Part shown: in pieces, positions 5,109 to 16,855 of the stretch
Layout: the number at the start of each line of letters is the position of its first letter
Position numbering within the stretch: position 1 is the first letter of the stretch
Source of the DNA: a virus
DNA length: 21,501 nt
Virus record (IMG/VR): IMGVR_UViG_3300043411_000682
Location: 1 to 21,501 of that record
Strand: one strand, 5' to 3'
Position numbers and translations under genes: made by a program
Notes under the pieces: generated by a model
What the model was told of the DNA's origin: nothing
Database searches by the model: none
Seen by the model: only the letters and a program-made list of their open reading frames with translations

Positions 5109-5333
5109 ATGATTAAAATGACTTTATTTCTTATAGCTTCCCCCTTTGTGGCTTTGCCAGTTCTCTTTTTGCATTGGACGTACGGTGACAAAGACGGCAA
5201 CGGTGGGTATCAGGGACTCTGGATTGGTGACTGGAAAAAGAAAACTCTGGCTGCAATTCTCGCGCCAGTCTATTTGGTTATTATTTTGTACGTTCGGTTC
5301 GTTATGCCGAAATGGGAGGGGCTTTTAGACTAA
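5109..5333 (+). CDS. Small membrane protein, two transmembrane helices
   Basis: 74 residues from the ATG at 5109. Helix 1 is MTLFLIASPFVALPVLFLHW, then a polar loop (YGDKDGNGGYQGLWIGDWKKK), then helix 2 (LAAILAPVYLVIILYVRFV). An in-frame ATG at 5079 would add ten residues but lies in a GC-rich hairpin, so I prefer 5109; neither has an SD. The stop (5331-5333) overlaps the stop of the converging - strand gene. Function unknown; an envelope role such as superinfection exclusion is possible. Confidence 0.5.
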   Translation: MIKMTLFLIASPFVALPVLFLHWTYGDKDGNGGYQGLWIGDWKKKTLAAILAPVYLVIILYVRFVMPKWEGLLD

Positions 5334-5578: not shown

Positions 5579-5584
5579 GTACAT

Positions 5585-5593
5585 ATTATAACA
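5585..5593 (-). promoter_or_regulatory. Extended -10 promoter of the Cys-rich gene
   Basis: On the - strand this reads TGTTATAAT, a full TGn-TATAAT element. No -35 is evident. A start 7 bases downstream falls at 5578, the chosen ATG, so the mRNA could be leaderless. Confidence 0.45.
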
Positions 5594-5615
5594 AAAACAC
5601 CACCAATAAAGGTGG
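5593..5615 (-). terminator. Hairpin with T-run ending the structured-RNA region
   Basis: On the - strand CCACC, loop TTTATT, GGTGG is followed by TG and TTTTT. The stem is only 5 bp, so the call is tentative. It lies just after the last stem-loop repeat and overlaps the promoter at 5585-5593. Confidence 0.45.
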
Positions 5616-5639
5616 GCTTTTGTGTATACGTAGCTCTTC

Positions 5640-5752
5640 CAGAAGTGCTGGGTGCGATAGTTCCCGGGTCGAACCGTTTGCCGAGACTTACATGGGCCTT
5701 CAGCGCGCATATCTCCCATCGCTCGCCCTAACTACCGCACTCAACACTCCTG
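5640..5752 (-). repeat. Stem-loop copy 1
   Basis: Arms CAGAAGTGCTGGGTG (5640-5654) and CACTCAACACTCCTG (5738-5752), written on the + strand, pair 15 bp with few mismatches. They continue inward with 5655-5662 and 5730-5737, giving about 23 bp on the - strand. The 67-nt interior contains GGGC/GCCC (5694-5697, 5725-5728) and a nested AGCG/CGCT pairing. Confidence 0.6.
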
Positions 5753-5764
5753 TAAAGAACTATT

Positions 5765-5867
5765 CAGAAGTGCTGGGTGTTGGGTATTAGGTATACGACC
5801 TAAGTCAGAGCTACTCGAATATTAAGACGCGCATCAGCTCTTATTGACCCAACACTCAACACTCCTG
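5765..5867 (-). repeat. Stem-loop copy 2
   Basis: Uses the same arms (5765-5779 and 5853-5867), continued inward by TTGGGT/ACCCAA (5780-5785, 5847-5852) to give 21 bp. The interior differs from copy 1 and contains hairpins AGGT-ATACG-ACCT and AGAGCT/AGCTCT. The right arm plus 9 more bases forms an exact 24-bp direct repeat, 5738-5761 and 5853-5876. Confidence 0.6.
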
Positions 5868-5877
5868 TAAAGAACTC

Positions 5878-5923
5878 CTTGCGAATCTCGTCTTTGGTTT
5901 GTCACCGTCCGAGAGTCCGCAAG
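5878..5923 (-). ncRNA. First hairpin of the candidate RNA
   Basis: CTTGCG/CGCAAG (5878-5883, 5918-5923) encloses CTCG/CGAG (5887-5890, 5910-5913), and GGT/ACC pairs inside. It begins about 11 nt after the predicted transcription start near 5934. Confidence 0.5.
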
Positions 5924-5940
5924 CAATCCTCTACCACTTA

Positions 5941-5946
5941 ATTATA
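5941..5946 (-). promoter_or_regulatory. Possible -10 element for the structured RNA
   Basis: TATAAT on the - strand, between the terminator at 5959-5999 and the first RNA hairpin. No TGn extension and only a weak -35 (CTGTTT) can be seen, so support is positional. Confidence 0.35.
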
Positions 5947-6099: not shown

Positions 6100-6360
6100 C
6101 TACTGACAGCTATCTGCTTCCAAGTCGTGATGGATGTCCTGACCGAATAGGCCTTTTTCGCTCGCGCTTGAGAGGTTTAACGCCCTTTGTGGCTTCCCAC
6201 CAGTAAGGACATCGGAGCACCATGCCTCGAGCCACCCTGGCAGCTTCCCTGTCTGCTTCCATTCCCAGTAGGCTTGTGTGCCCACGGCTGGGGACGCGAG
6301 TTCGCATACCTGTCGGGTGGTCTGACCAAGACGGACAGCAACGTCTGTGAGTACGCACAT
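6100..6360 (-). CDS. Small GC-rich gene, possible Cro/YdaS-like HTH regulator
   Basis: 86 residues. AGGAGGAG lies 5 bases before the ATG, the strongest SD in the window. An extended -10 (6411-6403) and a terminator (5999-5959) make it an independent unit. Residues 5-50 (TDVAVRLGQTTRQVCEL then AYWEWKQTGKLPGWLEAW) resemble the HTH-plus-Trp/Pro pattern of YdaS/Cro-like repressors, but the match is loose. The C-terminus is unremarkable. G+C is high: 76 of 120 bases in 6181-6300, against about 40% in a sampled late gene. Because GC-rich, structured DNA in an AT-richer phage can also mean a large noncoding RNA, this ORF could be incidental. Position in the central regulatory region fits a regulator. 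Confidence 0.45.
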   Translation of the reverse strand: MCVLTDVAVRLGQTTRQVCELASPAVGTQAYWEWKQTGKLPGWLEAWCSDVLTGGKPQRALNLSSASEKGLFGQDIHHDLEADSCQ

Positions 6361-11329: not shown

Positions 11330-13000
11330 GCTTAAAATCTTCGTTATCTTGTCTGCATATCGCGCTACATACTCAGCAGGTGCTTCGGATAACAACGACT
11401 TTAAGGCGACAGAATCTTCATGAAGAAGAGCTGTATCGAACACCTGGCGCATTCCAGGTTTCCAGCCAGTTGCCGACTCTAGGAGTTGTTCTGTTGAGCC
11501 AGCTTTAGGAGCAACGGGATTCATGTTTTGTGCAAGAGGATTTTTTACAAAACCAGCCTGCTTATCTGCCGCCGCTAAACTACTTTTTAGTGTTGCAACA
11601 GCACCAATGTTTTCTAGGTGTTCACCTAGTGTTTCTACACCCTTTTCACCAATAAACTCTAGTTTATTGCCTACACGATACAGCACCTTACCCCCAATAG
11701 TTTTGACTGGAGTAGTTGCTTGTTCATATACAGTTGTCCAGAAGTTTCCAAACCCTCCTTTTTTACCTGCAGTTGTGAGAGCTTTGATACCGACCTTCTC
11801 TAACTCTTTTAGGTTTGAGTAATCACGGTAAGCTGCCTGGGTACTCTGGTCTCCAATCTTTGTTATTGACTCCCGTGTTTTATCACGGATAGCATCAGCC
11901 ATGTCTGCTTTCAGGGTTTTTACTTCACTTGCAACATCCTGCCCCTTGAAAATCTTTGAAGGGGTAAACTTATCGAGGGAGGTCTTTATCTGATTCGCTT
12001 TTATCATATCAGTCCCACTAAAGTCTTTGTAGTCATCTTGTAGAGATTCAAAAGCTCGCTGAAAGTCCGCCTTTCTTGAGGGTTCGACTTCTTCCGCAAC
12101 TCTTTTTGCCGCTTTGGCAAACAACTCATCTTTGGTAATTGTCTCTTTTGAATTTTTAAGAGCTGGCTCAATCTTGTTCTTCCATAGGTCAAGTTTCTCT
12201 ACATTAGATTGAACACCGATTTGTTTTTCAGTACCAGCAATACCCTTACGAAGAGCGGTATCACTCGAGATAACAGGCTTTGCCTTGATTGCATCGTCGA
12301 GTTGCTTAGAAACTTCAGTAAATTCCTTTGTGCCTTTCGTGGTTTTAGCCAATTCTTGCTTCAAGAATTTAACTTTGGCCTGATTTCCTTGGAGTAGTCG
12401 AGCCTCATCAGCCGTAGGAGTGTAAGCAGATTTAAAGACTTTCTCACCAACCTTGCTAACTCCTTGTCCTACTTTTGATATAGCCTTAGCCCCAGCTTCC
12501 GCGCCTACTTGGGCTAATTTTGCTCCCTGATTAATTATTAGAATATCACCAGCGATTTGACCTGCGGCTGAACCGATGCCAGCAACTTCTTCAAGTGAAC
12601 GAGCTGCTTCTGGGTGCTTCATAACCCAGTCTTGTAGGGCTGGACTATCACCAATTTTATTAGTAACCGCCTGAAAACCCTTACCTACAACCTCACCCGC
12701 TTTTGAAAGACCTTGGCGAGCTACTTCGGGCAGAGCTTCATAGCCAATCTTCGGAACAGTATTGAAAGCCTGAGCAGTAGCCTCAAAACCACGACGTACT
12801 GAAGATTGTCCAGCAAACTCATCTGTGCCAGATATAGCCTGGTTTACGTTCTCTCCTGCATTAGCCACCACTTTTCTTACTCGGGATAAAAAACCTGGAG
12901 TGTTAACCTGGTCCTGAACTTCTTTAGAGACACCTGAAAAAGGTTTCTTTTTATATTTTGCCTCAAACTCTGCTGCTGTCATTGGTGGAAGTATCTTCAT
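11318..13000 (-). CDS. Large helical virion protein, possible internal protein
   Basis: 560 residues, almost entirely helical and Ala/Lys/Glu-rich. The first 25 residues are polar with KKKPFSG. Residues 130-190 contain Ala/Gly-rich amphipathic helices (EEVAGIGSAAGQIAGDILII; AKLAQVGAEAGAKAISK). A charged central region (EVSKQLDDAIKAK, KADFQRAFESLQDD) could form coiled coils. No enzyme motif is visible. Size, composition and position in the virion block resemble ejected or internal proteins of podoviruses; that is inference. The start follows the next gene's stop after one base. It has no SD (AATAAAATG). Confidence 0.5.
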   Translation of the reverse strand: MKILPPMTAAEFEAKYKKKPFSGVSKEVQDQVNTPGFLSRVRKVVANAGENVNQAISGTDEFAGQSSVRRGFEATAQAFNTVPKIGYEALPEVARQGLSKAGEVVGKGFQAVTNKIGDSPALQDWVMKHPEAARSLEEVAGIGSAAGQIAGDILIINQGAKLAQVGAEAGAKAISKVGQGVSKVGEKVFKSAYTPTADEARLLQGNQAKVKFLKQELAKTTKGTKEFTEVSKQLDDAIKAKPVISSDTALRKGIAGTEKQIGVQSNVEKLDLWKNKIEPALKNSKETITKDELFAKAAKRVAEEVEPSRKADFQRAFESLQDDYKDFSGTDMIKANQIKTSLDKFTPSKIFKGQDVASEVKTLKADMADAIRDKTRESITKIGDQSTQAAYRDYSNLKELEKVGIKALTTAGKKGGFGNFWTTVYEQATTPVKTIGGKVLYRVGNKLEFIGEKGVETLGEHLENIGAVATLKSSLAAADKQAGFVKNPLAQNMNPVAPKAGSTEQLLESATGWKPGMRQVFDTALLHEDSVALKSLLSEAPAEYVARYADKITKILSKKP

Positions 13001-14880: not shown

Positions 14881-16373
14881 GGTACGTTTAGAAGCGTTGC
14901 TTGGCACTTGTAGCCCGTAATTTCTGCCCCGCCCGTACTCGTAATCTGGAACTTGAACTCTTTACCTGATGAAAACGCAGCCCCAGTGCTTTCAATATTC
15001 AAAAATGTTCTCGACAAGTCACCCACTGTGCTGTCAGTTCCTATCGTAGTCCACGAAGTAGCGTCATCTACCTTGTATTTCACGGTCACAGACTCACCTG
15101 TAGCTAATTTTCTAAAATAGACCTTTACCGACTCGAGTCTTTTATCGCTATCAATGTCTCCGAAGTCGTAAATTTGTGTCTCGTAAATAGAAGTAAATGC
15201 GTAGGTGGCCGCATCGTTAGTTTTGTCGATTGAACCGTCGCCAGAGTGAGAAATGAAGAAGTAGTTTGCCGCAGTACCAAAAGACTGGATACCTGATGTG
15301 TTTATGTTCTCATCAATAATATCGAGAGTGAGTGTGTAAGGGTAATTAATGTTCTTCCTACCAAAAGACCAAATACCTTCGTTATACTCAGTACCCGCAG
15401 AATTGGTCATCAACTTTGCCGCAAAGAAAACACGGTTATTCTTTACCGCCTTTGATAGTGGCATTGTTTTACCGCTAAGTGCTTGGGTAAATACTTCTTT
15501 TAAGACCTGCGGGACGCCACCTGTATACCCTTGGATAATCATAGAACCTCGTCCCGCGCCTGTTGCGTTGTTTAAGTAACGGTCAGTGATACCAATAAGC
15601 ATACCCTCAATGGTTTCAAGGACTCGTAGTTCACCCTCACCCCAATCAATCGCTTCCTGAACGTCTGTAGAGGTTAAGTTCCACAAGAACACTTTGGACG
15701 CACCGTTAAAAGTAGAGATAGGTGCACAAGCGATAGCTAGGTAACTACCAAAGTTGGCGATAGATGTGATTTTGAAATTAGTAGGCAGGGTGAGTTGAGC
15801 ATCAGCTACTGTTCCGCTTGCGTTCACTCTTACGAGCTTGTTGTTGTACGGAAGATAAAGATTGTCGTCTTTAGCAATTAAGCCTTGTGCAACAGACGTG
15901 ATTGTTCCCACAGTACCCTGTGAGTTGGTAATGCTAGGAGTTCCCGAAAGCAGTCCCCACCTAAATACTTGTGTTGTGCCCTGAAAGCCCCAGAGGTAAT
16001 CCTTATACTCTACGAGACAGCCGTTCTGAACTGCTGCGTCACCTTCGGAAGAAGTAGGAAGCGTCCAATTTCCAGTAGTGGCATCTGCTTTATAGACAAT
16101 CTTCGTAAGTCCTGCACCCGTTTGGCCTAGACCGTAGAGTTTTGCAGAAGCAGAGTGGTATACGAAGTCTTTAACAAAATACTGCTTCATGCCAGTCGCA
16201 GTAGAACCGTCGTTTGTATCTTGTTCTAACGACCTATACGGAATAAGTCTCGTCGGGTCGCTAAACACATCAAAGTGTTTTGAGATTTGGAATCCATTTG
16301 CACTCGTTTGACGTGGTGAATCAGTGATTCCCCCGCTAAACTGGTTAACTCTAATTTCAACAGTCTTGCTCAT
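14877..16373 (-). CDS. Virion protein with beta-propeller-like repeats
   Basis: 498 residues. It begins [18 protein letters not shown] and [20 protein letters not shown], a pattern seen near the start of some podovirus tail-hub or nozzle proteins. The middle (about 90-340) contains repeated strand-turn units such as [37 protein letters not shown] and [14 protein letters not shown], like propeller blades. The C-terminal 110 residues are a beta-sandwich ([20 protein letters not shown]). The protein is probably part of the tail machine. Its first ten codons encode almost the same peptide as the upstream HNH gene, and the start overlaps that gene's stop by ATGA. Confidence 0.55.
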
Positions 16374-16855
16374 TTTGTATTTTTATTAAATCCCCATGTG
16401 TCGGTAGTCCTGTGACAGTCCTCGCACAATGTCCTTCCGTTATCAATAGCTAGTCTTAATTCTGGGTATCTCGAAAAGGGTTTTATGTGGTCAGCGTGCA
16501 ATTTACCACCCCTTACGCCACACCAAATGCAAGTCCAGTTATCACGAGCAAATACTGATTCTCTCCAACATTTATATTCAAACGATGTTCTTATTTGCTG
16601 ATTTACTGGAGTCACCCCACCCTTCCAATTAGAATTTTTTTCCTTGGTCATTTTTCCTAAATGTGAATTAACCAAAGCCTTTCTGTGTTTTTCAGTTAGT
16701 TTCTTGCCTTTATTCCAAGATGCAACACCCTTTCTTTTGTTGGAAAATTTAGCTAAAGTCTCCTCTGAATAGACACCAGTTTTACCTTTGTGCCAAGGGA
16801 TTGAACCTTTCTTAAACTGTCCGTTATTCACTTTTATCTCAACTGTTTTGGACAT
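16370..16855 (-). CDS. HNH homing endonuclease with NUMOD3-type repeats
   Basis: 161 residues. The N-terminal part has NUMOD3-like motifs: [38 protein letters not shown] and NSNWKGGV. The C-terminal domain is a clear [16 protein letters not shown], then [17 protein letters not shown], then [13 protein letters not shown], with two CxxC zinc pairs and the catalytic ADHI histidine. Such proteins cut DNA at specific sites and spread themselves; NUMOD3 units bind DNA. It sits between a fibre gene and the propeller-like gene. The N-terminus ([10 protein letters not shown]) copies that of the downstream gene, which points to insertion at that gene's start. Confidence 0.85.

Follow-up and report, generated by a model that had tools for sequence, protein, structure and literature searches.

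A probable gene for an orphan structured RNA in the gap between convergent gene blocks of an uncultured phage

Does the gap between the converging early and late genes of an uncultured phage hold an RNA gene and, if so, what might that RNA do? Most structured phage RNAs come to light through covariation among numerous homologues, and orphan RNA genes with fast turnover are therefore missed. The locus described here shows that a single genome can suffice for strong evidence of selection on an RNA, in the form of folding strength, strand-specific use of G-U pairs, and framing by a promoter and a terminator. The window, that is, the whole stretch of DNA analysed, is a 21.5-kb IMG/VR virus record (IMGVR_UViG_3300043411_000682). 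Early-type genes (NinG and others with weak relatives) occupy the plus strand to position 5333, late genes occupy the minus strand from 6505 on, and the RNA locus lies in the convergent gap between the two blocks. On the minus strand, this gap comprises three successive small units, each consisting of a TATAAT followed by a gene, with a terminator hairpin in units 1 and 2. The features to which we refer below are as follows.

6408-6403, 6360-6100 and about 5999-5960, minus strand: unit 1 (TATAAT, 86-aa ORF and terminator, respectively)
5946-5941 to 5621-5593, minus strand: unit 2 (TATAAT, structured RNA, terminator)
5590-5585, then 5578 to 5330, minus strand: unit 3 (TATAAT, then, 6 nt on, the ATG of an ORF), assigned from the sequence and the spacing rule given below
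5941-5946, minus strand: -10 box TATAAT of unit 2, from the sequence, with the predicted +1 at G5934 after a 6-nt gap
5593-5934, minus strand: proposed non-coding RNA, about 342 nt, with pairing from the first base to nearly the last
5867-5934, minus strand: hairpin H1, 10+8+5+3 bp, directly abutting H2
5766-5866, minus strand: H2, in which the shared arms (10+9 bp, one A.C) close a three-way junction from which two small hairpins branch
5631-5762, minus strand: H3, a stem of 9+11+11 bp with the same arms as H2 and a different interior
5853-5876, minus strand: 24-nt repeat, copy 1, AGTTCTTTACAGGAGTGTTGAGTG, in the 3' arm of H1 and the 5' arm of H2
5738-5761, minus strand: 24-nt repeat, copy 2, in the 5' arm of H3
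5765-5779, minus strand: 15-nt repeat, copy 1, CACCCAGCACTTCTG, in the 3' arm of H2
5640-5654, minus strand: 15-nt repeat, copy 2, in the 3' arm of H3
5593-5621, minus strand: intrinsic terminator, its stem listed on both strands and terminator-like for the plus-strand early transcript too

The 86-aa ORF of unit 1 (6100-6360, minus strand), which adjoins the RNA gene upstream, has a strong Shine-Dalgarno-like sequence (AGGAGGAG) and no family match; its AlphaFold model is a three-helix structure of low confidence (pLDDT 55). Unit 2 holds no internal ORF of more than 30 codons on its own strand. Elsewhere in the window, an HNH-endonuclease-like ORF amid the late genes (16370-16855, minus strand) looks, by its sequence, like a homing element, and several similar ORFs are present in the related genome G018. 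No terminase was recognised in the 21.5-kb fragment; in a relative, the terminase-like large subunit ORF at L049:2653-4626 (plus strand) appears, by eye, to be interrupted by an intein-like insert (CFTKDTKIEVPVG ... VVVSNCD).

The boundaries of the RNA follow from promoter spacing. Across the window and the related records, with 571 TATAAT sites in all, the commonest distance to an ATG was 6 nt (5.6%, compared with 1.8% for control hexamers). This roughly threefold enrichment of TATAAT-N6-ATG across the phage group provides sequence evidence for widespread leaderless mRNAs, and the TATAAT of unit 3 would, judging from its sequence and spacing, drive a leaderless mRNA for a small membrane-type protein. 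The same 6-nt spacing, measured from the TATAAT at 5946-5941, places the +1 at G5934, where H1 begins, and the RNA would therefore be paired from its start. Thus, the coordinate 5934 given in the preliminary description matches the group-wide peak, and the TATAAT and the terminator-like hairpin that were said to bound the structure are both present (5946-5941 and 5621-5593). Because no convincing -35 box accompanies this TATAAT, we infer the promoter of the RNA gene; against it also counts that the hexamer is found 15 times over the window.

Within these boundaries, the architecture is dominated by two direct repeats, of 24 nt (5738-5761 and 5853-5876) and 15 nt (5640-5654 and 5765-5779), each 100% identical between its copies as read from one assembled record, where an assembly error is possible. 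Among 2000 composition shuffles, the longest exact repeat was 14 nt (mean 7.6). The 24-mers are spaced 115 nt apart and are deployed differently: the first 10 nt of copy 1 close H1 and the remainder opens H2, and copy 2 lies entirely in the 5' arm of H3. The interiors of H2 and H3 show no significant alignment (p = 0.08), and a fold with arms exchanged between the hairpins costs 20 kcal/mol relative to local folding. The earlier proposal of two stem-loops with the same 15-nt arms and different interiors stands; the ends assigned to them have shifted slightly, to 5866-5766 and 5762-5631, because the 24-mer also pairs beyond the 15-nt arms.

The folding of this region is far stronger than expected from its composition. 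For the minus strand of 5590-5945, the minimum free energy (MFE) is -158.6 kcal/mol, compared with -104.2 +/- 5.2 for dinucleotide shuffles (z -10.5), and none of the 100 shuffles folded as well; the minus-strand value for the exact span 5593-5934 is -154.3. The plus strand of 5590-5945 reaches -113.6 (z -5.3). When the window and four relatives were scanned with regression normalisation, the minus-strand stretches 5581-5760 and 5761-5940 were the two most strongly folded.

The difference between the strands is more telling. Imperfect inverted repeats in DNA lose pairing equally on both strands. At this locus, the minus-strand MFE is lower than the plus-strand MFE by 43.8 kcal/mol (a difference of -43.8), a gap reached in 0 of 120 shuffles (-13.2 +/- 4.9) and in 0 of 120 simulated, neutrally decayed inverted repeats (+7.5 +/- 11.7, minimum -18.2). 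In this neutral null, perfect inverted repeats in the layout of the RNA each received 20 random transitions; the null is simple, being limited to transitions and to a layout derived from the minus-strand fold, and the comparison therefore amounts to strong support rather than proof. In terms of individual pairs, the minus-strand model contains 18 G-U pairs and 2 A.C mismatches, and the plus-strand model contains 4 and 6, respectively. Given that the strand gap lies beyond all shuffles and all simulated decayed repeats, an RNA transcribed from the minus strand was probably a target of selection. This asymmetry, which requires no homologue, is the strongest single argument for such an RNA and supports it strongly. 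Both the minus-strand structure of the preliminary description and the strand asymmetry that it linked to selection on an RNA accordingly hold up under explicit nulls, in support of its reading as a discrete structured RNA.

The RNA is an orphan in the data searched. Neither the window nor six related loci had any Rfam match at the gathering threshold, and up to E = 10 the gap region gave only spurious matches of the miRNA and sRNA types, in line with the initial view that no known RNA class is represented. ARAGORN detected no tRNA or tmRNA in the window or in the RNA, the relaxed threshold included, and a tRNA-like reading of H3 was rejected for want of a cloverleaf at that threshold. Searches by blastn against phages and against plasmids returned no homologue of the RNA, the sets of 25 and 46 related phage records searched in the same way yielded short, weak matches only, and an exact 23-mer had no match in IMG/VR. 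The 15-mer arm patterns had 62, at least 120 and 60 matches in IMG/VR, all attributable to chance by comparison of the flanks, as was the one match, in Butyribacter, to a 20-mer in GTDB genomes. A covariance model built from H2 and H3 and run over 869 kb (the window and relatives) found the window alone. Altogether, no homologue turned up in Rfam, phages, plasmids, IMG/VR patterns, one GTDB scan or some 70 related records, a set from which records very near the window's own were possibly left out. A resemblance of GTTGGGT/ACCCAAC to the core sites of integron attC was rejected, as the sites stand in the wrong order.

The relatives, which were found via the major capsid protein (identity up to about 83%), among them five fuller records, each roughly 30-35 kb long, provide a background for comparison. 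Of the 53 TATAAT-to-terminator units with little coding content that the window and 26 related records contain, the RNA unit ranks first by folding (z -10.2). Smaller, unusually folded units are present in L049 (1662-, 95 nt), L032 (13786-, 103 nt) and L036 (about 12002-, a single hairpin with a terminator), and none of these has a detectable homologue in the other related records compared. Small RNA genes that change fast thus seem to be a feature of the phage group, although some of the small units may be short coding ones, and homology is established neither among them nor with the 5593-5934 RNA. The lysozyme neighbour of the RNA gene had no relative in IMG/VR by scan and is present in two related records, strongly in G030 and weakly in G039. 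The best positional analogue of the RNA, at L194:5980-6450 (plus strand) in G030, lies beside the lysozyme homologue, is structured (z -3.7) and has in common with the window RNA a 14-nt string at the terminator (ATACACAAAAGCCC); the two are not alignable beyond chance.

Possible pseudoknots were noted in two candidate leader or hairpin RNAs of this group. In relative G015, the L036 unit mentioned above (11860-12002, minus strand) would specify a TATAAT-led hairpin RNA with a terminator, in which crossing stems (GUUCACUCC/GGGGUGAAC and CCGCAAA/UUUGCGG) would make a pseudoknot possible. At L034:11937-12036 (plus strand), a TATAAT is followed after 6 nt by a 31-codon leader ORF, and an H-type pseudoknot (AGCCUUUG/CAAAGGCU crossing GUCCC/GGGGAC) may form in its RNA, close upstream of the next gene.

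These observations translate into a graded interpretation. The locus is very likely a real RNA gene: the unit, its folding and the selection for minus-strand pairing are supported by sequence and computation. As to function, we tentatively favor a fast-evolving, non-coding phage RNA that acts in trans and offers its repeated arms to a protein, as a decoy or a scaffold, an account that as a whole we consider plausible, if somewhat short of probable, and whose mechanism (trans action and protein binding) we infer. Under this model, a host-type RNA polymerase would initiate at G5934 on the minus strand and halt at the terminator at 5593, producing an RNA of about 342 nt that would fold locally, in the order H1, H2, H3; H1 and H2 abut and might stack end to end. 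The RNA would act in trans and without base-pairing, given that pairing covers almost all of it and that no consistent match to phage translation starts emerged for its few loops. The identical arms around unrelated interiors would constitute a duplicated protein-recognition site, through which, during infection, the RNA could hold back an RNA-binding protein of host or phage, such as a defence factor, or serve it as a scaffold. A host-facing role would agree with the fast turnover from one relative to another, and the identity of the arms suggests, at the sequence level, that the arm sequence and not pairing alone has been kept; recent duplication or arm-to-arm recombination, with no protein site involved, would be an equally simple account of that identity. 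The decoy role is proposed by analogy only: phages are known to use decoy RNAs, in that Racr acts against CRISPR-Cas (PMC10651486) and pseudo-ToxI against ToxIN (PMC3475682).

The best-surviving alternative, albeit an unlikely one, is a base-pairing sRNA whose loop would pair with phage or host mRNAs and control late or lysis genes. Such RNAs typically come from genes with their own promoter and terminator, as here, and phage-derived sRNAs that regulate gene expression have been reviewed (PMC12197685). However, the RNA is mostly double-stranded, with no unpaired stretch longer than about 10 nt, and its loops gave no consistent antisense signal against phage translation starts, the best duplexes being mostly no better than those of shuffled loops; pairing of the H1 loop (GGTGACAAACC) with one start region beat 30 shuffles and was not significant after seven tests. 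This scarcity of loops and their unconvincing pairing with phage translation starts make regulation by base-pairing the less likely option.

We regard as quite unlikely a cis-acting leader, in which the RNA would be the 5' UTR of the unit-3 ORF (5578-5330, small membrane-type protein), with the terminator as an attenuator or riboswitch switch. An aptamer-like structure and an intrinsic terminator just 5' of an ORF on the same strand do form a riboswitch layout, but a second TATAAT, with the 6-nt ATG spacing enriched in the group, intervenes between the terminator and the ORF, a read-through mRNA would have no Shine-Dalgarno sequence near the ATG, Rfam contains no matching riboswitch, and antiterminator pairing is absent from both the MFE and the centroid models.

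Still more doubtful is a self-assembling or virion-associated RNA comparable to pRNA, GOLLD or ROOL, in which kissing loops within or between molecules would build an RNA particle or a motor part. The ornate structure in a phage, the three-way junction at the end of H2 and the GC-rich AUGCGCG common to H2 and H3 would suit such an RNA; yet the bases of AUGCGCG are partly paired in the MFE model, no tRNA genes are nearby, the covariance models of GOLLD, ROOL, OLE and pRNA give no Rfam match even at E = 10, and 342 nt compares with the approximately 660 to over 800 nt of GOLLD and ROOL (PMC12286853). Finally, that the locus is a DNA-level element and not an RNA gene, with decayed inverted repeats serving as signals for replication, recombination or bidirectional termination, is most improbable: inverted repeats can be DNA signals and the site lies between convergent early and late blocks, but the strand asymmetry falls far outside the neutral decayed-repeat null and the better-folding strand is the one that carries the TATAAT and the terminator.

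Returning to the trans-acting, protein-binding RNA, a bolder version of this reading, which we consider rather unlikely, posits a new class of decoy or scaffold RNA. In this class, the duplicated identical arms would be a protein-recognition element and the interiors would be free to change, with evolution so fast that a different RNA gene, or no recognisable one, is present even where the capsid proteins of two phages are about 80% identical. More broadly, the locus hints that this uncultured phage group has a whole set of small RNA genes, which may act on host factors.

Among known systems, GOLLD and ROOL are ornate, stand-alone, highly structured large RNAs of phages and prophages, of unknown function, often found beside tRNA islands and conserved in their folds (PMC12286853). 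The window RNA resembles them as a phage-encoded, highly structured, stand-alone non-coding RNA and differs in its length and in that the window has no tRNA gene; with this and no Rfam match up to E = 10, their use in the preliminary description as a comparison only was apt. Racr, a solitary repeat unit, is a small, non-coding anti-CRISPR RNA of phages that has its own promoter, as the window RNA presumably does, and acts as a decoy via repeat mimicry (PMC10651486); whereas Racr mimics a single CRISPR repeat, the window RNA contains its 24-mer twice, 115 nt apart, as hairpin arms. Pseudo-ToxI of phage PhiTE is likewise a repeat-bearing phage RNA, a mimic of a type III antitoxin that targets a host defence protein (PMC3475682). 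In ToxI, however, head-to-tail units of about 36 nt form pseudoknots, unlike the hairpin arms with unrelated interiors seen here, and a ToxI-like type III antitoxin was rejected for the window RNA on the basis of its two 24-nt repeats spaced at 115 nt. With the phi29-type pRNA, the window RNA has in common a phage origin and a helix that closes a three-way junction (H2), but not a match to the Rfam pRNA model up to E = 10. What the window RNA does display are the general features of a stand-alone non-coding RNA gene of a phage: its own promoter-like and terminator sites, no notable ORF, and structure beyond chance on the transcribed strand.
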